A model generated the notes under the pieces. That model had not been told where the DNA came from. It saw nothing but the letters and a program-made list of their open reading frames with translations, and did not search any database. The position numbers and the translations under genes were made by a program. 64,000 bases of DNA, taken from NCBI GenBank assembly GCA_022653695.1, contig JALCSW010000001.1, positions 117,979-181,978 of the forward strand, in the 5' to 3' direction. This DNA is from Bacilli bacterium (GTDB lineage: Bacteria; Bacillota_I; Bacilli_A; RFN20; CAG-826). This document shows, piece after piece, positions 7,600-58,099 of the stretch (positions are counted from its first letter, which is position 1; every line of letters begins with the position of its first letter).

Positions 7600-8922
7600 C
7601 TAATCCATTTGCTTATCTTTCTTTTTATCGATGTTTAATATGTAATCGCTAAGACTATCAACTGAGACTCTGTTTTGTTCCTCATCGAAGTGAGCATAGA
7701 TACCTTCAGTAGTTGTGATTGTAGAGTGACCAAGGTATTTTTGAATATCTTCCATTCTGATGCCAATATGTCTAAGCATTGTAGCACAACTGTGTCTAAG
7801 ATCGTGAAACCTGATTCTTCTAAATTCGTTCTTTTTAAGAAATGAAGCAAAGTTTTCGGTAAGCCAGTCGACTTTGTACCTATCACCATTCTCTCTAACA
7901 TAGATATAGTCATCAAATTCATGATTGTAGGAGTTACCAAATGTCTTTCTCCACTCATCCTGTTTCACCTTCATTCCTAAAAGCATGTTTTCAATGATTC
8001 CGTTCTTATCGAAAGGGAGTGATCTGAAGGATTTTTTAGTCTTGGTTGTGTCAGAACCTATCTCAACTCTCTTACCATCGACCACCGCTGCTGTGACTGT
8101 ATGTTTAATTGTGAACTTCCTATATTGGAAATCTATGGCATCCCATTTCAGCCCAACGATTTCTTCTCGTCTTAAGCCATAATAAGAAGCCATAAAGATA
8201 GGAAATTCTAAGGGCGTTCCTTTTGCTTTCTCTAGCAAGGCATCAATCTCTTCCTTGTTATAGTAACTATGTACGAACTCCTTCTTTTTAGGCTTTTCAG
8301 CTCGATCGGCGACATTGGTTAGGATAAATCCCTTTTTGAAGGCATATTGAAGGGCTTTTCTAATGTTGGCGTGAAATCTGATGACAGTATTTGGATTCCT
8401 TGTTTTCAGCATCTCAGCGTAGAACTGCTCTAAATCCTCAGGCGTAATATCTTGAAGATAGATTCTCTTTTTTCTGAAATAAGGATCGATTATGTTGTAG
8501 ATATTGAAATGGTAGCCAGTATATGTTGTTGGCTTAATTTCCGGTTTGACTTTGTCGAGCCAAATCTTCATGAAATCAGAGAAAAGAATTAAACCATTCT
8601 GAAGGTTTTGAGCAACCTCAGCAACACTATCTGATGCTGATTCTTCCTTGATTTTCTTCTGGACATCAAGCTTCTTCATCCTGCTCATATCCTCTTGAAT
8701 AGGGTTAAGACCCAATCTGAGTAATACTAGATTTGTCTTAACTATGTCCCCTGGTTGAAAACCGCTTTTTAGGGCGATAAGTATCCTTTTCGCTTTATTG
8801 GTGTTACCTTCTACATCGAGTTTAGTCGAAATCCATTTTTCGACTCTCTTTCCGTAGTTATCTCGCCAATACATAACGACAAAGTACTTGCCTTTTGATT
8901 TAACTAATCTCCCGGAAGTCAT
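7600..8922 (-). CDS. int: Tyrosine recombinase (ICE integrase)
   Basis: 440 residues, the usual size for Tn916/ICE-type integrases. It catalyses site-specific integration and excision through a 3'-phosphotyrosine intermediate. The N-terminal part (1-60) is an arm-binding-like domain, residues 110-195 a core-binding SAM-like domain, and the catalytic domain shows arginine R251 (YYGLRREEIVGL), H373-x2-R376 (FHDLRHS), H399 (YLGHS) and nucleophile Y409 (GIYAHF). The start overlaps the excisionase stop by one base (TAATG), implying translational coupling. The likely substrate is the TTTTGAG core in the tRNA-Leu anticodon loop. Unusually, int lies at the far downstream end of the conjugation gene array rather than under its own obvious promoter. 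Confidence 0.95.
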   Translation of the reverse strand: MTSGRLVKSKGKYFVVMYWRDNYGKRVEKWISTKLDVEGNTNKAKRILIALKSGFQPGDIVKTNLVLLRLGLNPIQEDMSRMKKLDVQKKIKEESASDSVAEVAQNLQNGLILFSDFMKIWLDKVKPEIKPTTYTGYHFNIYNIIDPYFRKKRIYLQDITPEDLEQFYAEMLKTRNPNTVIRFHANIRKALQYAFKKGFILTNVADRAEKPKKKEFVHSYYNKEEIDALLEKAKGTPLEFPIFMASYYGLRREEIVGLKWDAIDFQYRKFTIKHTVTAAVVDGKRVEIGSDTTKTKKSFRSLPFDKNGIIENMLLGMKVKQDEWRKTFGNSYNHEFDDYIYVRENGDRYKVDWLTENFASFLKKNEFRRIRFHDLRHSCATMLRHIGIRMEDIQKYLGHSTITTTEGIYAHFDEEQNRVSVDSLSDYILNIDKKKDKQMD

Positions 8923-15592: not shown

Positions 15593-18178
15593 TTACATCG
15601 CCCATGTCCCCCTATCGAAGAGTTCTGAAGTGCATTCGTCAGTAACGATTGCTACATTCCCTCTTTCTTTTGGAGAGCTTATTAGGAAACAAGTTCCTCT
15701 TGGGTTGTGGATGATGCTGTCTTTCTCAAATTCATTTATTCCACCGCTATTCTCATAGAGTTTCATCAATTCGTTCATATCGTTTGGTGAGAGTGAGAAG
15801 ATCATCGAATACTGGGATACGTTTATGATGGCTGTAGACTTTCTAGCAATTTCAGGAGTTCCAGCAAAATCCCTGACGTTTTGTGTGATGATAATAAGCA
15901 TTCCATCGTATTTTCTGATTCGCTTTGCTAAGGAATACATAAAATCAAGGGCTATCGGATACTTCTCATCAATGAATAGATGGGCTTCGTCTATGGCAAC
16001 CACAATCTTTCTGTTGGTGCCATTTCTGGTATTGCTATCCTTGTTACGTATTACCTCGTTTTCAAGCCACCTAAGAAGCAATAACATCTGTGCATTGGCC
16101 GTTGCGTCATTCTTGTTCGCTAGTAATCTTTGGAAATCAAAGGTTATGAATGCTTCCGTTGGCGAGAACGTCGTATATCCGTTCCATAACGAAGAGTCCC
16201 TTCCACCGCTTTTGAATCTATATAGATAATTGACCAACACTCTCAAGCAGTTTTGCTCATAGGCATCGCTAGCTTCTTTAAGTTTCTTATCAGCTAGAAG
16301 GCATAAATCTTCGAATACTGGGAATTCTTCAGACTTGATTAAGCTAAGATTTCTTCCTGGTCTGATATCTTTAGACGCATAGACTTCTTCGGTAAGCTTA
16401 TTTAGAAGCTCCAAAGAATCCTGGTTGATTCCTTGTAACACCACCTTATAGAACTGTTCTAGAAATTGAAGATGAGCGTAATAACTGTTTGAACTTCCGC
16501 CTTCATCATCCATCGTTGTCATAATCTGAAACGGATTAATTCGACCCTTCTCACCATTAGAGGCGTCGATGACCGAGCCTCCAAGATTCTTTGCCAAAGT
16601 CCCATATTCAGATTCAGGATCAAGGACGTAAATCCTATCGCCTTCTGTAGCTAATCCAGAAAGGAGGGATTTTGTCGCATAACTCTTACCGCTTCCTGAC
16701 TGACCAATGATGATCATGTTGGAATTGACATGAGTCAAATCCCTTTTGAACACATTTAGGAACACTGGCTCGGAATTCTCTCCAATTAGCAATCCTTTAT
16801 CATCCGCAAGCAAATCATCAGAGAAAGGAAATGAGGCTGCTAATGTGGATGACTGAATGCCATAAGGCATCTTCACAAGGTCTTTAGTTGAAGGCATGGA
16901 AGTAATGTATCCATCCATTTGCCTTCCAAGCAATTCTGAGAAACCAAATCCCATTTCCCTTAAAGCATCCTTAACCAGCTTTTTGTTCGTGGCTTTCTTC
17001 TCTTCGTCATAGACCGTGACGATAACTGTCGTATCAAACAAAGTTTCATTGGACTGTTGAATGTCTTCTAGTAACTCTCTTAAGGTATCAAGATGAGTAT
17101 CCGATTCCTGAAGCTGGCTTTCTTTTGAAACGTTTTTTGTTCCTATCTCTAGAATGGCGTTATCGATTCGCTTGATAGCTTTGCTTTTCTCAATAGGTTT
17201 CATCCTCATCACTACTTTAGTATTAGGAAGGCTATACAATCTTTCAGCCCAGCCATTAGGAACGGAAAGAGGAAATCTGTTAATCACTAATTCCGAGGCA
17301 TTCTTTGTTTCTTGATGAAGACTCAATAGACCGAATTTTAGTGAAGTCGGATCAGAGACAATCTTCATCTCAGACCTAGGATCAAATTTTTCTCCATAGC
17401 CTGCTTTGATGAATGTGTATAGACTTTGCTCATCTAGCCTATTTGCCTTTATCCCACTTGCTACGAATGTTTCTATAGTCCTATCAAGTTTTTCGTTAAT
17501 CGAATTGACGCTATAACCATTCAGAACCAAATAATAATGAGGAATCATCGTCTCAGAAGAATTCATCTCATCAATGCTTACCATCCTGAATTGAACTAAG
17601 TCAGCTCTAGCCATAAATTCATGGTCAGAGAGTTTCTTATCGTTCTTCATTGCGTTAAGCGTGTCGACTCTAGACATCTCGTCTTTCATTCTTTGATCAA
17701 GGACTAATGGAAGCTCTAGTTTCATTAGAGACCACTCCTCACTGTCAGAGACTGAATTGAGAATTCTGGCAAAGCAGCCATCAATTAAGTCATCTTGCCT
17801 CGTTTCATCGAGTATCTTGAAGTTGATAGGAGATATCTCTATCACACCTAACACGCTTCCGTCTTTCTCGTAGATGATTGAGTCCTTAACTTCCTTATAA
17901 GGGACAAGCGTGGATGAATCGTCTTTAAATCTCTTTTTAGAGAACAGGAACCTGAATAGGTGCCATATCTGGACATAGAGTCGGTTATCCCCAAGAGGAA
18001 GATAAAGAACAACTCCAAGACAGAGAATTCCCGTTGCTAAGTAGAATCTGAAAGAGAAGTTGCTCGACAAGGTTAAGGCAATTAAAGCTAAGGCGATTAA
18101 ACCAATCACCATATCTGCAATCGTTATTCCTTTGTAGAAAGTAACCTTCACTTTGCTGTTCTTTGGAATTATTCTCAT
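15593..18178 (-). CDS. VirB4-type conjugation ATPase fused to a PrgI-like membrane domain
   Basis: 861 residues. It powers the type IV secretion channel at the inner face of the membrane. Residues 1-90 contain two membrane helices and a basic loop like the separate PrgI family protein (IADMVIGLIALALIAL; LATGILCLGVVLYL; IWHLFRFLFSKKRF). The ATPase core shows Walker A GQSGSGKS at about residue 490 and Walker B AIDEAHLFIDE at about 730, followed by IIITQNVRDF. Usually PrgI is a separate gene just before virB4. The start overlaps the VirB6-like gene stop by four bases (ATGA). High confidence as VirB4; the fusion is read directly from the single frame. Confidence 0.93.
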   Translation of the reverse strand: MRIIPKNSKVKVTFYKGITIADMVIGLIALALIALTLSSNFSFRFYLATGILCLGVVLYLPLGDNRLYVQIWHLFRFLFSKKRFKDDSSTLVPYKEVKDSIIYEKDGSVLGVIEISPINFKILDETRQDDLIDGCFARILNSVSDSEEWSLMKLELPLVLDQRMKDEMSRVDTLNAMKNDKKLSDHEFMARADLVQFRMVSIDEMNSSETMIPHYYLVLNGYSVNSINEKLDRTIETFVASGIKANRLDEQSLYTFIKAGYGEKFDPRSEMKIVSDPTSLKFGLLSLHQETKNASELVINRFPLSVPNGWAERLYSLPNTKVVMRMKPIEKSKAIKRIDNAILEIGTKNVSKESQLQESDTHLDTLRELLEDIQQSNETLFDTTVIVTVYDEEKKATNKKLVKDALREMGFGFSELLGRQMDGYITSMPSTKDLVKMPYGIQSSTLAASFPFSDDLLADDKGLLIGENSEPVFLNVFKRDLTHVNSNMIIIGQSGSGKSYATKSLLSGLATEGDRIYVLDPESEYGTLAKNLGGSVIDASNGEKGRINPFQIMTTMDDEGGSSNSYYAHLQFLEQFYKVVLQGINQDSLELLNKLTEEVYASKDIRPGRNLSLIKSEEFPVFEDLCLLADKKLKEASDAYEQNCLRVLVNYLYRFKSGGRDSSLWNGYTTFSPTEAFITFDFQRLLANKNDATANAQMLLLLRWLENEVIRNKDSNTRNGTNRKIVVAIDEAHLFIDEKYPIALDFMYSLAKRIRKYDGMLIIITQNVRDFAGTPEIARKSTAIINVSQYSMIFSLSPNDMNELMKLYENSGGINEFEKDSIIHNPRGTCFLISSPKERGNVAIVTDECTSELFDRGTWAM

Positions 18179-23100: not shown

Positions 23101-25038
23101 GGCTTTAGTCCAGGTGAAGGTAAATGGCTTATTGGTATAGCCACCATTTTCAACAACGGCACCACCACTTGTGAAGACACCGTTTGCAGGAGCTTTATCA
23201 ATATCAACTGTGAATGTGGATTCATTTCCAGCGGAATCAGTGATAAAAATCTGATAGACCTTCTCTTCATTAGCATCAGCGGTCAATGTGACTTCTCTAT
23301 TGCTAAGAAGGTCATATGTATTTGTCAATCCAGTCGATTTGACTGTTCCTTTAGAAGAACCACTTGTGATGATGGAATCAATGTTCATCGTCACGTTAGC
23401 ATCTTTGTTAAGTTTGATAACTGAGCCATTTGCGTATTGAGTACCATTCAAGGTGATAGTTGGCTTGTTTCTCACAATGTTGAACTTGTAGGTCGTTGAA
23501 ATTCCAACTGCCGAAGTGATGGTTTCACTATAGGTGTTGTTAGGATAAGAGGTTTTCTTCAAAGCATAGTTAGTACCAATACTGAAGGCACCAGTTGTGT
23601 ATTTGTTGCTAGAGGATGAATAATCGAATCTAATCGTGTCATCCTCGTTAAAGTAAAGACCAGTATTAAGAGTCTCGTTTTTAGTCATAGTATGACCAAA
23701 AGAGGTGATTCCGTTTCTCTTGATGCTGATTGTTGGATTTGAAGTCTCAAGGAACACTTTTAGGGTGCTAGAGACATTTCCAGCGTTGTCGACCGCATAG
23801 AACTGATACCAACCATCACCACTATTGCTAGGAATGATTGAACCAGATGAATAAGAAACGAAACTGGATGAACTTGGAGTCTTATATAAGACAGTGTTCA
23901 AACCTGATCCACTATCGGATACTGAATAGCTAAATGATGTGTTCACGTAGGAGCCGCTTGAAATAGCCACCCCATTTGCGTAAAGTTGGCCATTAGGTGA
24001 ATAAGTATCGACTCTTACGGTATAATCAGCACTTCTGTTACCTAATGAATCAACAGCATAAAAGCTATAGATTCCATCTCCAGCCGAAGTTGTACAAGAA
24101 CCACTTCCAGAGTATGTGTAATAACTGGAGCTAGGGATTTTGTAGTAAAGACCATTGAGGTTAGTATCCGAGGCAGTGACTTTCACAGTACTGTTGGAAG
24201 TTCCACCATTAGGGATAACAGTTCCCGAACTGGTTTTGACCATTGAAATAGTTGGACTTGTATAGTCGATTAGAAGGGTCGCGCTATTAGTGGCAGTCGA
24301 AGAGACCAATGCCATCTTGGCTCCTGAACCAGCAATCCATTCATAGGAATAGGTGACGTTAATCGTATAAGAGCCAGAATATAGAGAGGAAGAAATTCTC
24401 CCTAATTTGCTGTAATCAAATGGCGTGTAATTGGTTGTAGAAACCGAATCAACGATAGAACTGGAAACTGAGCCGTTTCGGTTATATGTAAGCTGAGTTT
24501 GCTTATTGTCTGTTCCAGTAGCTTTTGCCGTGGCTTCAGCAATGAAATATCTAGAACTTCCTTTGCAGATTTCAAACTTGAAATCAGCTACTGCACAAAC
24601 CCCTAAAGTTAATTGACTGCTATAGGAATAAGGCAACGAGAAATTGACTTCGTTGAAATCAATATATGGGCAAGATGATGCAATCTTAATGTCAGATGTC
24701 GACCCAACACTCGTGCTAGTATTTCCACCATAAATCTTGACACCAGTATCGTGGTAGAAAGAGACATCAGAAACTGTCGGAGCCGTTCCAAGTAGAACTG
24801 TAACGGTTGACTTATGTGTTTCTTTCCCATAAACGCTTGGATAACCAGTAGATTGGTAATTGCTAGCGCCTGAAGCGCTGCCTCCACCACCTCCGGCATC
24901 AACTACATAGGCGTTTTTGACTACGCTATTATTGGTCCCTATAGAGCCAAGGACCGTGGGCTTTATGGCCGATGAGCAACTGACCAATAAGGTCGGAAGC
25001 ATCAATACAGCCAAGAATTTAGACTTGTTACTTTTCAA
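20143..25038 (-). CDS. Giant Ig-repeat surface lipoprotein (conjugation adhesin candidate)
   Basis: 1,631 residues. The N-terminus is a type II signal (MKSNKSKFLAVLMLPTLLVSC, lipobox LVSC at 18-21). A glycine-rich linker and at least a dozen Ig-like repeats follow, each with the pattern of a beta-rich block ending ...GNxTSxxxxIDxxAP or ...GSYxVxVxDAxGN. The C-terminus has a membrane helix (WAIALIAVGILAAVGVTVTIIV) followed by KRKKTFKK. So the protein is potentially anchored in the membrane at both ends. Located between the coupling protein and the pilin in the transfer operon, it is the best candidate for mating-pair adhesion. Repeats are only moderately alike, so recombination is less likely than in perfect-repeat adhesins. 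Confidence 0.8.
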   Translation of the reverse strand: MKSNKSKFLAVLMLPTLLVSCSSAIKPTVLGSIGTNNSVVKNAYVVDAGGGGGSASGASNYQSTGYPSVYGKETHKSTVTVLLGTAPTVSDVSFYHDTGVKIYGGNTSTSVGSTSDIKIASSCPYIDFNEVNFSLPYSYSSQLTLGVCAVADFKFEICKGSSRYFIAEATAKATGTDNKQTQLTYNRNGSVSSSIVDSVSTTNYTPFDYSKLGRISSSLYSGSYTINVTYSYEWIAGSGAKMALVSSTATNSATLLIDYTSPTISMVKTSSGTVIPNGGTSNSTVKVTASDTNLNGLYYKIPSSSYYTYSGSGSCTTSAGDGIYSFYAVDSLGNRSADYTVRVDTYSPNGQLYANGVAISSGSYVNTSFSYSVSDSGSGLNTVLYKTPSSSSFVSYSSGSIIPSNSGDGWYQFYAVDNAGNVSSTLKVFLETSNPTISIKRNGITSFGHTMTKNETLNTGLYFNEDDTIRFDYSSSSNKYTTGAFSIGTNYALKKTSYPNNTYSETITSAVGISTTYKFNIVRNKPTITLNGTQYANGSVIKLNKDANVTMNIDSIITSGSSKGTVKSTGLTNTYDLLSNREVTLTADANEEKVYQIFITDSAGNESTFTVDIDKAPANGVFTSGGAVVENGGYTNKPFTFTWTKAGTTATMSKDGSGFTDYTGFEITADGSYTFILKDSVGNTSEFRIVLDTIAPTGTIYANNKEAENGCVTNSSIYFTWDGDETCLMNGVSYKKNAVIDTEGIYRFVLKDKAGNETSYEAEIDRTAPTGNEDALNAFDRYYVTKWYECYFNGHIDSFKTYDEAIKKAADYEYSSSVEELSLSDISLFTETNMVSSNGDPENHDDEVRTGTYWLYKSKSNPSIKLYYFDKNLLEDVLKFYASSYVTGPHYYDGTTFPEGENVSDPIWTDDGVSAPIGNDYVLTNYGSVSATAKKQGSDETIVLDYGVKLSEQLKDSGVYDITETDKAGNACTYQVIIDLEGPKLSIHTETYGDDSKDITISKDNLSSTGTYYLKSLSISEILDSDSWAVVSVTKGGKTSYYTKGDALPTITDGGKYEVKAYDRLGNSIFFTVYISSQAETIDFTNNSDDTAVSIDVSMGETYQTITSIEIYRNGQKLDGVSTDKLNYEFTKDGLYRVVLKDNFGRTIKKEYYFHKALPQGVISGVANGGKTSNNVTFEFNASKYYAEIYKDGELISQNNDGSFTIESNAENSGSYEVKLINKTDEENYQVYNFTMDKVAPNVRIEGVEDNGTTNGSVKVGWTDEDVCSSTYSLNGGEEVSFNSDTVFSKEGTYVIKVIDDMGNVTTKTFTIDKTVSYEATTSGGKKIGGDATTSDDVIINAKEDAKITVIKDGEKYDYTFGETLTEEGSYLITVEDAYGNKTSFTIVIDKSVSFDMNVGDGGISNEPVVIDSGETETVIVTRNGEAYGYEAGTEITEEGTYRVIITDAYGNTKEVTFQIVYPDAKTSLDYTLGDDVEIVSVTKDGEAVQVDGNRISFTEDGTYVITYKVGDKEYTFTLKLDTTAPEITLNGVEDGGKVDGSVIIDGLTEEGTVEVYKDGVKIEYHLGDEIKDYGSYKVVVTDALGNARTYTFDLAFQMNGWAIALIAVGILAAVGVTVTIIVKRKKTFKK

Positions 25039-25050
25039 ATGCTTTTCCTC

Positions 25051-27276
25051 CTATCTTTGGCTTAATGGAGACCTGCCCTCAAAACTAGCGAGGTCAATGA
25101 ATCTCTTACGAGCCGTCTCAATTGTTTCTTCTTTTGCGAGTTGACCTGTTTTATGGGCTCTCTGAGCGGCTTTATTCAGTAATTGAGTAACTGACTTGCC
25201 GTCGAATGCTTTAATCGATTCTTCCAAATCCTCTTTGTCTTGATCTGACAGTATTCCATCAACTGCTGTAATGGCTTCTTTGACAGCCTGATCGACCATA
25301 AGATTGAATTTTGCTTTTGATTGTTCCTGTCTTTCTGGAGGAGCAACGTTATTAGACTTTGCGGTTCCTCCTTGGCCTCCACTTCCATTTAGAAGTGCAT
25401 TGCGTTTTCTCATGTCGTAGAAGGCTTTTTCTTCATCAAACCATCTACCGACAGACAACTTCTGATTCACTCTTTTCATTGAGAACTGAGGAACCAAGAA
25501 GCAAGGTGTGAACGTGCTTTTTATCGGATTGAATCCGAAGATAGTCACAATCGCATGTCCCATGTCACCCGGCTTATTCAGAGTCTGAAGTTCAGATGGA
25601 TAGATAAGTGGTCGTTCTTTGATTTGCGAATTTGAGTTGATGTCTTCTCCTTTGGCAGAGTTGAAACCAACACTTCTTTGAACTATCGAATAGTTTCCGC
25701 ATCGTTTTGAGAAATCCTCAATTGTCTTTAAATCGGTTGTACCGATGAAGACTTGGATATTGCAATTTGATTTGATGATGTCGGCACTTTTGTCGTCGTA
25801 GACTTTCGCTAATTGCGAATAGCTTTGAATGACTAAGCTCAGCCAGATATTTCGGCTTCTTCCGACAGTAATCATCTGTTCGAGCTTATGAACCTTTGGA
25901 AGGTTTCCAAACTCATCAAGAATGAAGTAAACCGGCTTTGGAAGTGCTAACTCTGGGTAGGAATTGGCTTGATAGACGAGCTCTTTATAGGCTTGAAGAA
26001 TCACCATGCTCGCTAATGTATGTCTAGTTTCCTTTTCATCAGGAATCTGCAGGAACAAGGCGATAGGCTTTTCTCCCATTGATCCGAATTCAATCTCGTT
26101 TTCGGAGGTCAAGGCACATAGTGATAAGTCACTGAACATCGATATTTTGTCGAATGTAGATGAGAGGTAACTTCCTCTAGTTTTATCGCTAGAGTCCATA
26201 ACCTGACGTGAGAGTGATACTGCTTTAGAAAGAGGGCTTCTATGTCTGAAGTACTCAATGAGTTTTTCACAATCATTGTCCGTAGACGTAGCAACCTTCA
26301 TCAATGAATAAAAATTGTATTTTTCCTTAGTCATTTCAAGACTTGGATTAGCTGAATCCTCTAACATCGCTAGGGCAATGGCGAGAATGAAGTTCTTCGC
26401 TCCGCTTTCCCACATAGGCTCTTCTTTGTTGGTGACTGGGCATAAGACAGTACAGATATCGTTTAGGTCTTCATAGACCTGGTCATTAAGGGTTTGCCTT
26501 TTGACCTGGACTGCTGAGTCTTTTTCTTCTTCGGACCAATAGTCATTTCCATCAAATTCGAAGCATCCCTTCTCCTCGTTTTCCACTACTTCATCTTCGA
26601 GATGGAGTGAACGCTGATAGAGAAGATAAGGCTTCTCAAGTGGATTCCATCTAACTGAATTGTAAGGATTTCTTAGATCAAGGACTTTGACCTCATAGCC
26701 TTTTGACTTCAAGGCTTCTGAGTGGTCAGCGAACAATTCTCCTTTTGGATCACTAATTAGCATCGAAGGATGATTTTTAAGTTCACTTATAATCTGGATT
26801 GAAGGCGAGACATAAGTTGTCGTTTTGCCTGAACCGGTTGTTCCTATGACTAATGAATGAGCTGGTTTAGCAAATGTAACTTTAAGTTCTCCCGATGACT
26901 CTTTCTCCATGATGGGTGTTCCCACTATTTCATGGTCTTTAAGCTCATTGAAATTAAGGGTTTTGTAATTCTTTGCTAATTCTTCTTCGGATTGGAATCT
27001 TGCTTCCTCAAGGTTCGCTTTTAGATGTAGATCACCATCCTTTCCTTTCATGATGTTTTTAGAGTTTAGAAGCCAATAATGGGAGTAGAGATAGAAGAGA
27101 ATCATCGCTAGCGCAATTCCTGCCAATAATGCGAAGAATCCGATTGTTTCACCGCTAATTAGATAGCGGATATCGAATCCTTTCTTAATGGCGCAGGTGA
27201 TAGCGAATGCTCCTATATAACAGACCCAGAAGGCGACTATCGCCGTTATTGCAATCTTTGTTCCTTTCTTTTTCAT
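25051..27276 (-). CDS. VirD4/TraG-type coupling protein
   Basis: 741 residues. It links the relaxosome to the secretion channel and pumps DNA. Two N-terminal membrane helices lie in residues 8-65. The Walker A motif GTTGSGKT is at about residue 149 and Walker B YFILDEFGNLPK at about 450, followed by SRNIWLSLVIQSYSQL. It is longer than a minimal VirD4 by a hydrophilic C-terminal tail of about 120 residues, probably for substrate recognition. The start overlaps the relaxase stop by four bases, so DNA processing and coupling proteins are made together. Confidence 0.93.
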   Translation of the reverse strand: MKKKGTKIAITAIVAFWVCYIGAFAITCAIKKGFDIRYLISGETIGFFALLAGIALAMILFYLYSHYWLLNSKNIMKGKDGDLHLKANLEEARFQSEEELAKNYKTLNFNELKDHEIVGTPIMEKESSGELKVTFAKPAHSLVIGTTGSGKTTTYVSPSIQIISELKNHPSMLISDPKGELFADHSEALKSKGYEVKVLDLRNPYNSVRWNPLEKPYLLYQRSLHLEDEVVENEEKGCFEFDGNDYWSEEEKDSAVQVKRQTLNDQVYEDLNDICTVLCPVTNKEEPMWESGAKNFILAIALAMLEDSANPSLEMTKEKYNFYSLMKVATSTDNDCEKLIEYFRHRSPLSKAVSLSRQVMDSSDKTRGSYLSSTFDKISMFSDLSLCALTSENEIEFGSMGEKPIALFLQIPDEKETRHTLASMVILQAYKELVYQANSYPELALPKPVYFILDEFGNLPKVHKLEQMITVGRSRNIWLSLVIQSYSQLAKVYDDKSADIIKSNCNIQVFIGTTDLKTIEDFSKRCGNYSIVQRSVGFNSAKGEDINSNSQIKERPLIYPSELQTLNKPGDMGHAIVTIFGFNPIKSTFTPCFLVPQFSMKRVNQKLSVGRWFDEEKAFYDMRKRNALLNGSGGQGGTAKSNNVAPPERQEQSKAKFNLMVDQAVKEAITAVDGILSDQDKEDLEESIKAFDGKSVTQLLNKAAQRAHKTGQLAKEETIETARKRFIDLASFEGRSPLSQR

Positions 27277-28463
27277 TCGGCCTCAATCACCCCCTCTTCA
27301 ACGAGTCTTTCAAACTCGGCTTTCTTTAACAGCCATTGGAATGTTTCATAGATGCTTTCTCTTTCTTTTCTAACCTCCTCATTGAGTCTGGCGTTCCTTT
27401 TGAAGAGCCAGCCTCTTCTGACTTTTTCATCCCAGCGTTGTCTTTCTTCTTCGGTTGTCCCTTTATGGAATTCTCCTTTCCTTTCCTGAACCTTTCTTAG
27501 GTAAGCTAGAATCTTATTTCCGCATCGCCTATACAGGTCTTGTTGGAAGGAATCTGAGATGAGATGACCATTAGGACTTGTCTTATGTGAAAGACATATT
27601 TCTTTCGTTTCTTCATCTCGCTTTTTGAGCTTCCTTCTTAGTTCTAGATAAGCCGACATTGAAACATCATCGTGGGTCAGCATGTAGTTAGTTATTTGGT
27701 CTATCTGTGGTCTTATTTCGTCCAGTTCGTGGCTTTCATAACCTGCTTTGTTCTTAGGAAAGACCCTATAGAGAGAAAGAAGCATTTGCTTAAGGTCTTT
27801 ATCGTAGATGGCAGTCAAGTCTGGCTTTAGAAACTTGTTCTCCTCTTGCTTAAGAATCTGATTCCTGAACTTATGGAGACTGTATTCGTTCCCATCCATC
27901 CTTTTCTCAATCCTCAATTTGAAGTCTGTTATGGAATCGTTAGAGATCATCCCTTGGTGGTATCTCATTTTTTGTTTCTTATAGTCGAAGGTCTGAGGCT
28001 CCTTTTCAAAGAAACTAAGATGGATGTGTCGATTGTCAGTGTTCTCGTGAAGACCGGCGTACCATAGGATGTTTTCGTATGACATGTTGTTGTCTTTAAG
28101 AAGCTTGGGAAATTCTTTCTCAATGAGTTCTTTGGCTGAACGCCAGGATTTCATCTTTTCTTTCCCATACTTCTCCTCGAAGGTGATGAGCGAATCCCAA
28201 ATGACGGATTCTGTCGTTGAGAGCTTCTCCCTCATCACCTTTTTCTCATCCATCGTCAAAAGCCCATTTCTAGAGAAGACACCTGACGATTTCTCGCGGT
28301 TACCCGCATAATCCATGTAGTCTTGATACTTCCCGGATTTAACGCCAGTGTCCACATACTTCAAGTAGTCGGAGCTGGAATCTTTCGAGGAGTAATAGTT
28401 CCTTTTTCTTGACCCCGGTCCGTAATACCTAGTTTTGTAGATTACGTTCGGGGTTTTACTCAT
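27273..28463 (-). CDS. Relaxase, probable MobL family
   Basis: 396 residues. It nicks the element at oriT and leads the strand into the recipient. The histidine triad is HENTDNRHIHLSFF (about residues 137-150), the metal site of HUH-type relaxases. The N-terminal segment YQDYMDYAGNREKSSGVF resembles MobL proteins of Firmicutes and Mollicutes, and a long basic helical C-terminal part (KRDEETKE..., RRGWLFKRNARL) follows. Family placement rests on these two segments; a MobP-type assignment cannot be excluded. It overlaps both neighbours by four bases. Confidence 0.85.
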   Translation of the reverse strand: MSKTPNVIYKTRYYGPGSRKRNYYSSKDSSSDYLKYVDTGVKSGKYQDYMDYAGNREKSSGVFSRNGLLTMDEKKVMREKLSTTESVIWDSLITFEEKYGKEKMKSWRSAKELIEKEFPKLLKDNNMSYENILWYAGLHENTDNRHIHLSFFEKEPQTFDYKKQKMRYHQGMISNDSITDFKLRIEKRMDGNEYSLHKFRNQILKQEENKFLKPDLTAIYDKDLKQMLLSLYRVFPKNKAGYESHELDEIRPQIDQITNYMLTHDDVSMSAYLELRRKLKKRDEETKEICLSHKTSPNGHLISDSFQQDLYRRCGNKILAYLRKVQERKGEFHKGTTEEERQRWDEKVRRGWLFKRNARLNEEVRKERESIYETFQWLLKKAEFERLVEEGVIEAE

Positions 28464-28924
28464 TTACGAACGCTCCTATTGCTTCTAAATTCTTCTGGAA
28501 TGCCTTCCACTCCTTTTGCAAGGTACAATTTGACCGTCATTTCGTCTTGATCCAAACTGATGAGATTGAAGACCGCCGAAAGTAGAATCAATAAGTTGAG
28601 ATTGTCATCAGATAGAGAATCTAGCGCCTTAATCTCGGCATCGCTCTTCTCTAAAAGAAGCTCGATTAATTCATCAATACGTTTCTCAATGTTTTCCCCT
28701 TGAACCCTTTTAACAGAATCACCCACAGGCAAATCCTTATGCAGGTACATTGGAGCCAAACACTTATATCCTTCTCTTAGTAAAGTCATATAGAACTCAC
28801 TAGCATTGCAGTCCATCTTGTTATAAAGATCGACCAACTTATTGCAGAATTCACCATCACGGCAACGGAAGAAACCTTCATGACTCTCTCCCACGCTCAA
28901 TGGCTTTCGATTGTTTATAGACAT
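28460..28924 (-). CDS. Probable relaxosome accessory protein
   Basis: 154 residues, soluble, helical, no recognised family. I place the start at 28,924 because AGGAGG lies nine bases upstream; the open frame continues upstream without a ribosome binding site. The protein has an ERF-like Cys cluster (FFRCRDGEFCNKL) and an acidic/Leu-rich C-terminal half. It immediately precedes and overlaps the relaxase, and the 196-bp region upstream is rich in inverted repeats, as expected if this protein binds oriT, but this is inferred only from position. Confidence 0.6.
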   Translation of the reverse strand: MSINNRKPLSVGESHEGFFRCRDGEFCNKLVDLYNKMDCNASEFYMTLLREGYKCLAPMYLHKDLPVGDSVKRVQGENIEKRIDELIELLLEKSDAEIKALDSLSDDNLNLLILLSAVFNLISLDQDEMTVKLYLAKGVEGIPEEFRSNRSVRK

Positions 28925-29120
28925 TTGTTTATTACCTCCTGTAATTAGATAGATGGGGAATCCCTCAACCTCAACCATTAGGACAACAAGTCCTTTTTGT
29001 AGTTACTAGATGGATATTTACTTCCACTAGGTCTGACACTGTGATTGTTGGTATCGCTGGGACTCCCCTCACTTAAAAGGCTGGAAAAAGACTAAAACTT
29101 TCCATTTTCAGCAAAACTTT
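28925..29120. other. Inverted-repeat-rich gap, candidate oriT
   Basis: No gene. It contains the near-complementary pair GGGGAATCCC (28,955-28,964) and GGGACTCCCC (29,059-29,068, one mismatch), a short hairpin AGGAC/GTCCT with a T-run (28,980-28,998), and a CTAG...CTAG dyad near 29,008-29,031. A gap with nested inverted repeats right before the relaxosome genes is where an oriT is expected. No nick-site consensus is known to me for this family. Confidence 0.4.
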
Positions 29121-29588
29121 TTAAAATTTCCTATCGAGATATTCTTTTAGCTTTGCTAATGCTCTATCAAGAAGCTTTGAAACCGCGGCTTCTTGGACAC
29201 CCATTTCTAAAGCTGTTTCACGTTGGGACATTTCTTTGAAATAGATGCAAACAACCACTTCTCTTTGCTTAGAATTAAGTTTATTAACAGCATTTCGTAT
29301 GATTTCATTCTTCTCGTTTTCTAAAGCAAATTCTTCAGGATTCAAAGATGAATCAATCTGCATAAATACTTCGCAGTCATCATCATCAATTTCATCAATA
29401 GAGCTGGTACGACGCTGGTACTTTCTTTCTTGGATATGGTCGTAATATTCAAGTGCAAAATGATATCGTTGAGAATCAATCTCTAAAGTCTTAATAGCCT
29501 TATAGAGTTCTTCGTCAATTGGTAGTTTTACGGTCTTAACCTCACCGGATTTTGTGAAGATTTCTACTTCATGAATCTTAATGCTCAT
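29121..29588 (-). CDS. Sigma-70 region 4-like regulator
   Basis: 155 residues. The C-terminal 60 residues form a sigma-region-4-like helix-turn-helix (AVNKLNSKQREVVVCIYF, then EMSQRETALEMGVQEAAVSKLL). The N-terminal part has no region 2, so this is a region-4-only regulator as in many phages and ICEs, likely acting on transfer-gene transcription. It is the first gene of the leftward transfer array. Its ribosome binding site is buried in a perfect hairpin (see 29,594), so its production may be controlled at translation. Confidence 0.8.
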   Translation of the reverse strand: MSIKIHEVEIFTKSGEVKTVKLPIDEELYKAIKTLEIDSQRYHFALEYYDHIQERKYQRRTSSIDEIDDDDCEVFMQIDSSLNPEEFALENEKNEIIRNAVNKLNSKQREVVVCIYFKEMSQRETALEMGVQEAAVSKLLDRALAKLKEYLDRKF

Positions 29589-29593
29589 GTTGA

Positions 29594-29765
29594 GCCTCCT
29601 TTGCGGAGGCCCATGACGAAAACAGCCTATTAAATTGCCTGTTCCATCAGTGGGTCTTACCGCTGATTTGTGCAGGCAGCTTTTGCAAATAAGCTACTTA
29701 CGATAGAAAGACGTTTTGCATACTCGAGATCGTCTTTCCAACACCTAGTTCTTCTAGGTACGATT
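29594..29765 (-). promoter_or_regulatory. Structured leader with ribosome-binding-site hairpin
   Basis: The mRNA leader of the sigma-like gene ends in GCCTCCGCAAAGGAGGC (29,594-29,610), a 6-bp perfect stem whose 3' arm is the Shine-Dalgarno AAAGGAGG. Further upstream come three more dyads: TCAGCGG/CCCACTGA with one mismatch (about 29,647-29,668), GAAAGACG/CGTCTTTC (about 29,706-29,736), and ACCTAG/CTAGGT (about 29,742-29,759). Four consecutive hairpins in 170 bases argue for a regulatory RNA leader. The ligand or signal is unknown. Confidence 0.6.
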
Positions 29766-29795: not shown

Positions 29796-29911
29796 AGACA
29801 GGGGTTGTCTATCAAAAAAACATCGACAAATGCTATGTTTTTTCATAAAAAAAGGCTCGCCGATTCATTGCGAGTCTTGGTTAAACTGAATTTAGAGACA
29901 AGGGTTGTCTA
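29796..29911. promoter_or_regulatory. Two AGACA-N5-TGTCT dyads exactly 100 bp apart
   Basis: AGACAGGGGTTGTCTA (29,796-29,811) and AGACAAGGGTTGTCTA (29,896-29,911) differ at one base. Each is an inverted repeat (AGACA/TGTCT, five-base centre), the form of a dimeric repressor site. They flank the terminator after the ImmA-like gene and face the sigma-like gene leader. Likely operators for the element's own HTH regulators. Confidence 0.5.
29847..29877 (-). terminator. Terminator of the cargo operon
   Basis: Minus strand: CTCGC, a nine-base loop, GCGAG, then CCTTTTTTT. It lies about 45 bases past the stop of the ImmA/IrrE gene and should end the five-gene operon. A second possible stem, AAAAAACAT/ATGTTTTTT, overlaps 29,814-29,843. 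Confidence 0.7.
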
Positions 29912-31822: not shown

Positions 31823-32614
31823 CTAGAAGAAATCCCCACCTGAATCTTTTCCTTCAACAATATAAGTTCCTGTTTTTATATGGCATTTGATTTTATTCGT
31901 CATACAAAAACTAATTACTTTCTTTGCGCATGAATTGTAGAACTCCTGGTAATCTTTGTATTTTCCAACTATTTTATTGTAATGAAGTCGTCCAAAAACA
32001 ATATAGTCTACAAAATTTATTTTTTTTAAAATATCTTCAATTGCGGTTTTGCCCATATTTGGGGTGGGGAACGGTTCAATGCTAACCCAAGTTTTGTACC
32101 CTTTATCATGAAGAGCCTTAAGGGCATTTACTCTTTCTTTATAACTTGTTGAAAGCGGCTCATATTGTTTCTTAAATGAATCATCAAGAGAAACAAGCGT
32201 AATACCATATTCATTAATCTTTTTGGTTGTTTGAAGGTATTCTGGCAATGTTCCCTTTGTTAGAATTCTGCACATAATATTATCCTGGTTGATACGATTT
32301 ATGATTTTAAGCGTCATCTCCCCTACTTCTGGATAATCATCCATAAAAGGATCTGTAGTAAAGCAAAGCTGAACAGATTTGATTTTTCCTTTAAGTTTTG
32401 GAAGTTCCTTATCAAGTAATTCAATCGAGTTAGACACCAATTTTGGTTTAATCCAATCCGCATAAGTTTTCACATGGCCAAAACGCTTTGCCATGTTAAA
32501 GGCATAACAAGGAAAGAGGCACCCATGAGAGCATCCGGTTACGTGGTTTACAGTATAGTCTCCATACTCAACATCGGTTTTGTATAGTAATGATTTTCTA
32601 GTTGTCTGATCCAT
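31823..32614 (-). CDS. Radical SAM protein with C-x3-C-x3-C motif (TcmP partner)
   Basis: 263 residues. The cluster motif HVTGCSHGCLFPCYAF has cysteines at 28, 32 and 36: C-x3-C-x3-C rather than the classical C-x3-C-x2-C. The surrounding sequence (TGCSHGC...CYA) is of the spore photoproduct lyase-like radical SAM type. Later segments (VQLCFTTDPFMDDYPEVG; RILTKGT; LVSLD; WVSIEPFP) follow the TIM-barrel strand order of that superfamily. Start at 32,614: the AGGAG is eight bases before this ATG; the TTG six bases earlier is too close to it. It overlaps the TcmP gene by 17 bases. Substrate unknown; DNA or RNA is plausible given the relatives and the neighbours. Confidence 0.75.
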   Translation of the reverse strand: MDQTTRKSLLYKTDVEYGDYTVNHVTGCSHGCLFPCYAFNMAKRFGHVKTYADWIKPKLVSNSIELLDKELPKLKGKIKSVQLCFTTDPFMDDYPEVGEMTLKIINRINQDNIMCRILTKGTLPEYLQTTKKINEYGITLVSLDDSFKKQYEPLSTSYKERVNALKALHDKGYKTWVSIEPFPTPNMGKTAIEDILKKINFVDYIVFGRLHYNKIVGKYKDYQEFYNSCAKKVISFCMTNKIKCHIKTGTYIVEGKDSGGDFF

Positions 32615-33821
32615 TTTCAATTCTCCTAATTAATAATGTTTGTTCATGCTGCTTTTCGCTGTAAAACGTTGACTCTCTACCAGTGGACGTTCTTGGAGGA
32701 TATCTTAATTCTTCTGTAAGATTACTTTTTTTGTATTTAGCTAAAAAATTGGTTAGTGTTTTCTTACTAATTACAACACCGTATTTTTGATAGAAATCAA
32801 TTAGAATGTTGTTAAAGTGAGTGCTTTCATATGGAATCATTTCAAGCAATTGCTTTTCAATTTGCTCCATATTTACAGGGTCATCTTCTACTCCTCTTTC
32901 AAACAAGCAAGTTTGTCCATGGTTTCTTTCGTCTTGTGACTCTTGCGATCGATTAAACATGTTTTCTGCCATTATGATGCATCCTTCTTCGTGATTAGTA
33001 GCATGAATCATTCTATATTTTGGTTGAGTATCATTAGTAGCCCTAATAGGCATACTTAAAACATATTTAAACTCTCCATATTTGCCACGAAGTTGATTAC
33101 AAAATAAATCCGTTAATCTTTTTTCCGCTTCAAAAGAAGTAAATTCGTTGGCTTTTCTTGCTTCTATAATCCCTTCCCATCGATCTGTACCGAAGATAGC
33201 ATTAATTCCTTCTTTAGTCCCAACGTTTGTAGGGTCGTATTCTTCAAGTCCAGTCAACTCTGTCTCTTTTTCAGTATAATCTAAGACTTTGCAACAGTTC
33301 CTATACAGCCCAAAGGAATTAAAATTGATGAGAAGCTCAGCTGAGCATCTATTTGAATTTTTCCTATTTCCCATAGCTAAGAAGGTCTTCATATTCAAGG
33401 CTTTGATTCCATAAGGGTCAAAATAAACAAAGAGATTGTGGTTTTCAGACTCTTTAAGGATTTTTTCAATGTTATCTTCAAACTTCCCGGCAATGACAGC
33501 ACACCTGGAATAATTTCCATCAGCCAAGTTTTCTTTCAAATCGTCATAGTATTCACTCTCGATAAAAACATTGGTTGTTGTAATATAACTTCTCTTGCTT
33601 AGTGATTTTGCCTTATTCAAACATTCCATGGCAATTAATGGAGAACCCGGATTTCCATCATCAAATTTTCCTTTTCCAGCAAAGCAATCAACATAGAAAA
33701 GAGGTCTTCCACTACAAACAATCTTTTGGAAATAAGGGACTAAATAGCAACCTAATAACTTATCTTTATAAAATGACCAAGGTTTCTTTGCAACAAAGAA
33801 ATCATCGTTCTTTTTTGACAT
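32598..33821 (-). CDS. tcmP: TcmP-like (three-Cys-motif partner) protein
   Basis: 407 residues. It matches the pattern of the three-Cys-motif partner family, named for being encoded beside altered radical SAM proteins, exactly the arrangement here. VDCFAGKGKFDDGNPGSPL (about 44-62) resembles an AdoMet-binding loop and FVYFDPYG (about 131-138) resembles the DPPY-like motif of Rossmann methyltransferases. The C-terminal quarter looks like a winged helix (TLTNFLAKYKKSNLTEELRYPP). A role as nucleic-acid-modifying partner in defence is my inference; no member has a function I can cite with certainty. Confidence 0.75.
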   Translation of the reverse strand: MSKKNDDFFVAKKPWSFYKDKLLGCYLVPYFQKIVCSGRPLFYVDCFAGKGKFDDGNPGSPLIAMECLNKAKSLSKRSYITTTNVFIESEYYDDLKENLADGNYSRCAVIAGKFEDNIEKILKESENHNLFVYFDPYGIKALNMKTFLAMGNRKNSNRCSAELLINFNSFGLYRNCCKVLDYTEKETELTGLEEYDPTNVGTKEGINAIFGTDRWEGIIEARKANEFTSFEAEKRLTDLFCNQLRGKYGEFKYVLSMPIRATNDTQPKYRMIHATNHEEGCIIMAENMFNRSQESQDERNHGQTCLFERGVEDDPVNMEQIEKQLLEMIPYESTHFNNILIDFYQKYGVVISKKTLTNFLAKYKKSNLTEELRYPPRTSTGRESTFYSEKQHEQTLLIRRIENGSDN

Positions 33822-33833
33822 GCCTTAATCCTC

Positions 33834-35696
33834 TTAATTCAAATCAGGAGAATTAAAAAGTAATTCTGCTAATTTGCCACATCTATCAATAATCTGACCA
33901 TAAGTTGTAAAATCTTGATGGTCTGGCAAATGAAGAACTTCATTGCCTTTCTCACTATTCAGTTGAGGCAAGAACAAACGAATATTACCTATTCTATGCA
34001 AGGTTCTCGCTTCAAATTCGGAATATTCCATACCATCGAAAACCCCATCAGGGAAATCATTTCCTTCTTTCAAACACAATAAATCAGAACCGTTAATATT
34101 CTTTTTGTAATATTTTAAATTTGGATTGTCCTCATCTGGAGTTTGTGGCAACATATGGTCAAGTTGAAAAGTGGAATCTTTTATATGCGAAAGCATCATA
34201 GTTGCTTGAGAAAAAAGCAATTTATTCTTATTACTAGTATCTACTGATTCTAAAAGAGATAAAACACTATAAGCTAAATCGTGCTTTGAATAAAAATCCA
34301 TTGCAACAAATCTTCCTTTAATGGCGTTCATATCAATGCCGTTCTTAATCAATGAATCAGTGAAAAATTTTTCAATTTCCTTCGAGTCGAGTTTATCTTT
34401 ATTGTAATAAGATCTAGTAATTGAATCAAAGGTAGGTATAGCATCTTTGCTATCCCCTCCATTTATAGATTGAAATTTGAACATAAACAACGTTGAAGAC
34501 TTTATTATTCTTGTTACATCATCGCCACTTATAATACCCTTTGAAAGTTCACAAAATGACCTAAAGATTAAAGCTCTAGGGTGTGTATATCCATTTATCA
34601 AATTAAGTTTATAAAAAGTCGCAAAGCTTTGCTTTTTAACAATTGAAGTAGCTGTTTTCTCATCGAATAAAAGCTTATATTGGTCAACAAGTGAAAGCAT
34701 ATCGTTAATTAACTTCTTCAGGGATTCAGCAACACTAGAAACATGATAAATGCTTGGAAGTTGATTACTGATCCATCTAAAATTATTTATATTGATTGAT
34801 ACTTTGTAATAGAAAAGGAATGCCTTAATATATGTTTGTAAATAATCGGCTAAATTATCATCAGTCCTTATTATTAACTGACCCCATTTCACTAAATAAG
34901 AGTCATAATCAGATTCGTCTAGAACTGAGAAAATATAAGTCTTTATTAAGTCTATATTTTCAAGCGGTTTCCCTTTGCTATTGATTGACTCAAAAACAGA
35001 AAATACTTTGGGCATAGAAACAGAAGATTCAATTGCGATAAATTGAGTTCTGTCCTGAATAAAAGACAAAAAATTCAGCGCTTCATTTGGGTTGGCTTCA
35101 TTTAAAGGGAATTCCGTCAAGACTCTGTCATAGATTTTGTTAAACATAGCAATTAAATTTACTTCTGTTTGACATTTAGGAGTGTATTTTTTAACTGTAG
35201 ATTGAATATCAATTGGAGCAGAAAAAGATGCATCAAAAATAAAAGAAAAAACATCTTTATCTATACTCGAAAGGCTTAATAATCTTTCTTCCTTTATATA
35301 CTTTCTTTGGCTTTTGTTGTATTTCCAAAGACATTTTTTTAGTCCTGAAATTTCAACATCTGTGTCATCAAGTCCTCTACTTCTACATATTGAATATAAA
35401 GACAAAAGTAGCATTGAATAGGTGGCTAAACGTTGCTGCCCATCAACAACCTCAAATTCGTTTGTGATTCCGTTTGAACCTTTATCGTGCTTTCTCAAAA
35501 ACAAAGTACCCACAAATAATGAATCTTCAGGATTCTCCGCCCTTTTTCGATAAGCACCAAAAATATCATCAAGCAAAGCCTCTACTTCATTTGTAGACCA
35601 TTTATATGGTCTTTGATACACTGGCACCTCATAAAAGTTATTTTCAATAGCATCTTGAAGCGTCCAAGCAAATGGCTTAAATTGTTCATCGTTCAT
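33834..35696 (-). CDS. GmrSD-like DUF262/DUF1524 nuclease
   Basis: 620 residues. DUF262 N-terminal motifs are clear: VPVYQRPYKW (about 23-32) and VVDGQQRLATYSML (about 83-97), the nucleotide-binding DGQQR of GmrS/ParB-like folds. The C-terminus has the DUF1524 His-Me nuclease motif: LDHMLPQTP (about 512-520) and RIGNIRLFLPQLNSEKGN (about 568-585). Such fused proteins are type IV restriction enzymes that attack modified phage DNA. It is 12 bp upstream of the TcmP gene. Since type IV enzymes have no own methylase, the neighbouring methyltransferase- and radical-SAM-like proteins are notable. All key residues appear present. Confidence 0.85.
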   Translation of the reverse strand: MNDEQFKPFAWTLQDAIENNFYEVPVYQRPYKWSTNEVEALLDDIFGAYRKRAENPEDSLFVGTLFLRKHDKGSNGITNEFEVVDGQQRLATYSMLLLSLYSICRSRGLDDTDVEISGLKKCLWKYNKSQRKYIKEERLLSLSSIDKDVFSFIFDASFSAPIDIQSTVKKYTPKCQTEVNLIAMFNKIYDRVLTEFPLNEANPNEALNFLSFIQDRTQFIAIESSVSMPKVFSVFESINSKGKPLENIDLIKTYIFSVLDESDYDSYLVKWGQLIIRTDDNLADYLQTYIKAFLFYYKVSININNFRWISNQLPSIYHVSSVAESLKKLINDMLSLVDQYKLLFDEKTATSIVKKQSFATFYKLNLINGYTHPRALIFRSFCELSKGIISGDDVTRIIKSSTLFMFKFQSINGGDSKDAIPTFDSITRSYYNKDKLDSKEIEKFFTDSLIKNGIDMNAIKGRFVAMDFYSKHDLAYSVLSLLESVDTSNKNKLLFSQATMMLSHIKDSTFQLDHMLPQTPDEDNPNLKYYKKNINGSDLLCLKEGNDFPDGVFDGMEYSEFEARTLHRIGNIRLFLPQLNSEKGNEVLHLPDHQDFTTYGQIIDRCGKLAELLFNSPDLN

Positions 35697-57835: not shown

Positions 57836-58093
57836 AAAAATCCTTAGGCGTAAGAGCCTAAGGACGCTTCGATGCGTGGTGCCACCTTAGTTTGCCGGCT
57901 TTTCGCAAAACCAGCCTCGCCGAGTACCTATCGATACCCGCTCGCGCTAAACGGGCGAACCCGTCATCCCATACTATCGAGTTCAGGGATGCAGCTCCAG
58001 GATGCGTTCATAACCCGCTCCGCGCCGCATTTCCACCGTCAGCGGCTCACTATGGCTAGCTTGGGCTACTACTTCTTCCCTTCTTGGCTTTAT
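57836..58093 (-). promoter_or_regulatory. T-box leader of the amino-acid ABC operon
   Basis: The minus-strand leader has the T-box core GGTGGCACCACG (57,875-57,886), CGTCC, and a terminator TCCTTAGG/CCTAAGGA followed by TTTTT (57,836-57,864) which overlaps the antiterminator strand. Upstream is a long Stem I-like region (GGTGGAAA apical loop, AGTA, and the ACGGG/CCCGT stem). It lets uncharged tRNA stop termination. I could not fix the specifier codon. Confidence 0.85.
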
Positions 58094-58099
58094 GCACGA

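Follow-up and report, generated by a model that had tools for sequence, protein, structure and literature searches.

Most discussion of how quiet conjugative elements commit to transfer centres on repressors and on transcription attenuation. Translational riboswitches rely on an anti-Shine-Dalgarno (anti-SD) arm that competes between the Shine-Dalgarno sequence (SD) and an upstream segment, and the tetQ leader of CTnDOT is said to bury its SD and to act by translational attenuation. For this Bacteroides conjugative transposon, the excerpted text of PMC5418344, citing Wang et al. 2005, describes translational control by the tetQ leader and, through it, control of conjugation; the same excerpt presents the ermC-type translational attenuators, in which the ribosome-binding site (RBS) is sequestered in one fold and free in an alternative one. 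The excerpted text of PMC9632896 describes, for Tn916, a transcriptional attenuation in which an RNA leader controls the ICE and is relieved by translation inhibitors.

The locus described here lies in a window of 64,000 nucleotides (the whole stretch of DNA that was analysed, i.e. positions 117,979 to 181,978 of contig JALCSW010000001.1) from a Bacilli bacterium, and consists of a structured leader in front of a small sigma-like regulator gene. Its proposed likeness to CTnDOT, as far as the excerpt goes, is that of a conjugative element whose RNA leader controls translation and thereby conjugation; however, in CTnDOT the first gene confers resistance and is inducible by tetracycline, whereas the window leader sits on a sigma-like regulator, with no leader peptide or drug indicated. 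The sequestered and free states of the RBS in the excerpted account of the ermC-type attenuators resemble the two predicted folds of the window leader, but these attenuators are defined by a leader ORF with ribosome stalling, and no such ORF was found in the window leader. With translational riboswitches the leader shares the predicted sequestor/antisequestor arrangement, although it matches no Rfam class and contains no recognised ligand-binding core. Tn916, as excerpted, resembles the proposed system in that an RNA leader controls the ICE, yet its attenuation acts on transcription, whereas the SD hairpin of the window has no U-tract (unlike the window, a remote clade of the L059 type, considered below, joins a terminator-like hairpin to SD burial). 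We searched the open literature for regulators of ICEs or of conjugation that are controlled by a leader or by burial of their SD, and recognised no paper describing such a leader type; subscription papers lay mostly outside the scope of this search, so we make no claim that the type is unpublished.

The host genome assembly (GCA_022653695.1) is incomplete at 1.29 Mb, and the window carries an ICE with a MobL relaxase, in which integrase, relaxase, coupling protein and VirB4-like ATPase are all present (along with ArdC-like and primase-polymerase-like genes):

7600-8922: tyrosine integrase
15593-18178: TraG/VirB4-like P-loop ATPase
25051..27276, minus strand: VirD4/TraG coupling protein (Pfam PF02534, 1.7e-49)
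27273..28463, minus strand: MobL (MobP2-type) relaxase (Pfam PF18555, 8e-27; relatives annotated MobP2)
29083..29061, minus strand: oriT-like conserved core CAGCCTTTTAAGTGAGGGGAGTC, between the regulator and the mob genes (function from position)
29121..29588, minus strand: sigma-70 region 4-like regulator, 155 aa (profile matches, AlphaFold model)
57857-58094: T-box leader (Rfam RF00230, 109.8 bits), upstream of a 268-aa gene

The regulator (Pfam PF08281 8e-12 and PF04545 2.9e-11; NCBIfam TIGR02937 2.3e-18; AlphaFold mean pLDDT 77.3, pTM 0.44) lies upstream of the VirD4 and MobL genes, all three on the minus strand, and the order regulator, oriT-like core, accessory gene, MobL, VirD4 is common to the window and L035. 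A core similar to CAGCCTTTTAAGTGAGGGGAGTC stands at the same place in L032/L035 (with a short DNA match in L025), and we regard it, by its position, as a putative oriT-like site. The ends of the ICE were not found: a search for an attachment site at the tRNA-Leu gave no repeat longer than 12 bases, and this tRNA was rejected as the attachment site. A second MobL relaxase of the same genome (G000:C3 2230-3405, L030) lies, as judged by eye, beside a replication-initiator-like gene, and the window bears defence-like cargo at 31823-35696 (a PDC-M30-like pair and a HEC-06-like gene, by PADLOC).

The start codon of the regulator (ATG at 29588, minus strand) is preceded by the SD AGGAGG (29600-29595) and by a leader in and around which the following features were delineated:

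29896..29910, plus strand: second copy of the palindrome AGACA-N5-TGTCT
29796..29810, plus strand: palindrome AGACA-N5-TGTCT, operator-like, adjoining the presumed promoter of the leader
29742..29760, minus strand: first leader hairpin, 7 bp (z -4.62)
29704..29740, minus strand: second leader hairpin, 10 bp with a 17-nt loop (z -1.47 for 29739-29706, not above chance alone)
29701-29672, minus strand: dyad (scored as 29700-29668, z -0.71)
29667-29646, minus strand: dyad (scored as 29675-29630, z -1.61)
29617..29702, minus strand: upstream domain of the SD-buried fold (minimum free energy fold of the 182-nt leader)
29603..29663, minus strand: predicted antisequestor, 22 bp, imperfect (29663-29637 with 29627-29603)
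29591..29613, minus strand: SD-burying hairpin, or sequestor (29613-29605 with 29599-29591, loop GCAAA)
29585..29614, minus strand: mini-ORF MGLRKGGST, its stop overlapping the sigma start (ATGA)

The sequence-only reading of this DNA had placed a perfect hairpin, GCCTCC-GCAAA-GGAGGC, over the SD of the regulator; it is indeed present (29610..29594, minus strand), and folding lengthens it to 9 bp at -17.1 kcal/mol (z -5.13 for the hairpin alone, with 0 of 200 shuffles equally good). As in the general class of SD-sequestering leaders, the SD is thus paired in a predicted stable fold beyond chance. When the pairing of each gene's SD with the 60 nt upstream was evaluated (for genes whose SD matches at least 5/6 bases), the regulator showed the strongest SD:upstream helix among the 27 window genes with a good SD (p 0.002, in a comparison that drew on 52 of 80 sources), and its helix ranked third by energy among 168 genes from 75 of 96 sources (the other 21 being duplicates, redundant copies, or L093-L095, which were found via a DNA pattern). 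The unpaired probability of the SD, taken alone, does not separate the genes, since the homologues L037 and L040 score low too. The exact 19-base hairpin of the window recurs in three viral contigs (L096:601-619, L097:2894-2912 and L098:7550-7568), where it overlies the SD of a different small gene in the first two and is terminator-like in the third.

The whole leader (29775-29580) folds at -64.7 kcal/mol, against -44.99 +/- 4.06 for 200 shuffles (z -4.85). It had been described as a four-hairpin leader, a description that holds in so far as the dyads are present; singly, only the SD hairpin and, among the dyads preceding it, the first clearly exceed the shuffles, and the four-hairpin arrangement is one among several near-degenerate folds. 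The optimum of the 182-nt leader pairs 29702-29688 with 29631-29617 instead (and, in the same upstream domain, 29683-29673 with 29641-29632 and 29667-29660 with 29653-29646), this domain being near-degenerate with the separate-hairpin fold of 29775-29580. No Rfam match reached the gathering score in the leader, for which a known riboswitch or T-box class was rejected on that ground; the whole window gives only the T-box listed above and a tRNA.

In the computed folds the SD is buried, and a competing fold exists. The antisequestor takes up the anti-SD arm while leaving the SD free; when the SD is constrained to stay open, the window leader folds best in this way. By itself it exceeds the shuffles modestly (z -1.80; p 0.096 for its core in the duplex search); with the window's upstream RNA present, opening the SD costs 7.1 instead of 13.8 kcal/mol, as compared to 12.5 +/- 2.1 with shuffled upstream RNA (p 0.026, 150 shuffles). 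In the finished leader the SD-buried fold is better by ~7 kcal/mol, and in the 164- and 172-nt prefixes, where the SD arm is still incomplete, the antisequestor is the predicted best fold. The same shuffle test was applied to 14 leaders having an SD helix of interest (a set that includes neither the negatives L037, L040 and L031 nor L079), and the competing fold reached p<0.05 in 8 of them (window, L036, L043, L046, L055, L059, L089 and L090), the remaining values being 0.06 (L035), 0.053 (L092), 0.146 (L091), 0.265 (L081), 0.563 (L063) and 0.821 (L041). L035 and L036, being nearly identical, are to be taken as one case.

From these predicted folds we propose, with about as much confidence as doubt, that the leader keeps translation of the sigma-like regulator locked off by default, and that it is probably a two-state switch. 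By default the SD would be buried in the very stable local hairpin and translation would be off; the same anti-SD arm could instead pair with RNA starting ~50 nt upstream, thereby freeing the SD, and during transcription this upstream pairing could form first. Were the SD-free fold held in trans, whether by a protein, a small molecule, a ribosome or an RNA, ribosomes could load, and the regulator then made would help turn on the adjacent mob genes. The earlier suggestion of a translational switch that controls entry to transfer is reasonable in this light, since the regulator that bears the structured leader precedes oriT-like DNA, the MobL relaxase and VirD4; the SD-burying hairpin is real and an SD-freeing alternative fold is predicted, the control itself being what we infer.

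Full-length relatives of the regulator were found at three places in two other genomes among the 279 of the order (L032/L035, L033/L036 and L034/L037), with a partial match in a fourth genome, and further relatives in the class (395 genomes sampled) are L040 and L041; viral contigs and genome contigs gave nothing close to the sigma protein or to the leader. By DNA, the leader was recovered from 1 of 117 genomes (the window's own) and matched nothing in plasmids or phages. The nearest syntenic homologue (L035/L036, leader z -4.88) also hides its SD in a stem, of different sequence (UGUGUCCUUCUU paired with AAGGAGGACA), and a helix competing from upstream gives p 0.002-0.003 in the duplex test and 0.046-0.06 in the SD-opening test. 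L041 has a long stem over the SD (leader z -6.90; duplex test alone p 0.08-0.12), while no stable SD stem is found in L037 (leader z +0.50) and L040. The sequence-only reading would be contradicted by homologues that lack the stem, and here the outcome is divided: with changed letters (and no alignable set) the stem is kept in L035/L036 and in the L041 fold, and is absent from L037 and L040. Moreover, L031:5518-9463 carries a mob module 95% identical in DNA to window 25001-28947 alongside another sigma-like gene, the SD of which is no more buried than chance would allow, and other cargo, which suggests that regulator and leader are swapped together as one module. Upstream of the L035 regulator (L035:4749-4875) we noticed by eye two tandem terminator-like hairpins with long loops, which seem to contain the complementary hexamers GAGCTA/TAGCTC.

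Competition between SD and upstream RNA for the anti-SD arm shows more clearly, in the predicted folds, in the remote clade than in the window. Its leader is common to L043, L046, L055, L059, L081, L089, L090 and L093 (from genome contigs, streptococcal and enterococcal plasmid records, and viral contigs) and contains a terminator-like hairpin, GAGGACT...AGTCCTCC-TTTTTT, whose 3' arm doubles as the anti-SD arm and is predicted to pair with the SD of the sigma-like gene that follows; in all of these leaders but L081 the upstream arm and the SD were noted to be partial direct repeats. In L043, L046, L055, L059, L089 and L090 the compensation by upstream RNA has p 0.007-0.02. In an alignment of 8 of 9 leaders (L091 was dropped for its mismatched upstream arm, and L092 left out) covariation is absent from the SD helix and nearly so from the terminator arm; since the arms hardly vary, this neither supports nor refutes the pairings.

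Across the wider family, 26 small sigma-like genes gathered by protein similarity were compared with the other genes of the same sources: an SD helix at p<0.05 is found in 10/26 of the former versus 14/142 of the latter (Fisher 7e-4), and per-gene rank tests give 1.5e-7 on energy and 1.6e-5 on z. Collapsed to 11 clades, the rank test gives p 0.058 on z and 0.005 on energy, and a Fisher test on clade medians 0.24; the enrichment is strong per gene and marginal per clade because relatedness inflates the per-gene figures. Within the window's own clade, the stem occurs in the window and L035 and in neither L037 nor L040. The family-wide trend is accordingly to be read as suggestive, not settled.

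The main rival to a switch, one that we hold to be rather unlikely, is a constant lock: the stem would do no more than hold a costly regulator at a very low level of translation, or prevent read-through transcripts from being translated, and a repressor acting at AGACA-N5-TGTCT would control transcription. Such a lock agrees with the great stability of the SD hairpin (and the ~7 kcal/mol advantage of the sequestered fold), with the strong stem of L063 (-12.2 kcal/mol, p 0.032 to 0.044), which has no competing fold, and with the pair of operator-like palindromes close to the presumed promoter (placed by eye and absent from the listing of promoter-like sites), which stand 100 bp apart where 0.08 copies are expected in the window; that competing folds exceed shuffles in the window, in L036 and in 6/9 members of the remote clade speaks for the switch instead. 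Improbable, in our view, is control by a leader peptide or by coupled translation, in which ribosomes on the mini-ORF would open the hairpin and re-initiate (translational attenuation or coupling). The mini-ORF does pass exactly through the hairpin to end in the ATGA overlap, and in the remote-clade leaders L055 and L059 the upstream arm resembles, by eye, an SD followed by an ATG; but the SD of the mini-ORF is weak (-2.5 kcal/mol), the SD-like look of anti-anti-SD arms arises by necessity, and no conserved leader peptide is apparent across L035, L041, L089 and L090, where it was rejected on a by-eye comparison of the leaders. The conserved leader ORF with a good SD that typifies the ermC type is lacking, the best leader ORFs having SDs of -2.5 to -3.3 kcal/mol (with conservation judged by eye).

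That a stable hairpin merely happens to fall on the SD is very improbable: 14/142 other genes reach p<0.05 in the same test, and the same 19-mer occurs in the unrelated viral contigs L096, L097 and L098, but against chance stand the first rank among the 27 window genes, the z of -5.13, and the stem of the syntenic homologue, which lies at the same place with other letters. Almost no weight remains for an RNA thermosensor or an antisense target, both proposed in the sequence-only reading and in keeping with the several near-degenerate hairpins. At 50 C the opening of the SD still has a computed cost of 12.4 kcal/mol (local) or 6.7 kcal/mol (full leader), energies that make melting in the growth range unlikely; as for an antisense RNA, no antisense promoter-like site rises above chance, the leader has no Rfam match at the gathering score, and a weak pT181 ctRNA match (E 1.6, far below that score) lies upstream.

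Beyond the lock and probable switch of the window, it is possible, though we would sooner doubt it, that fast-evolving bistable leaders widely gate the small sigma-region-4 regulators found on Gram-positive mobile elements, with the SD and an upstream decoy competing for the anti-SD arm, and that in one clade the same arm closes an intrinsic terminator, setting both transcription and translation. If both pairings of the remote clade are real, one arm would govern termination as well as translation. A translational lock on the sigma-like regulator that recurs with different letters would, if true, represent an added RNA checkpoint, and such a checkpoint would help to predict the inducers of transfer for these elements.
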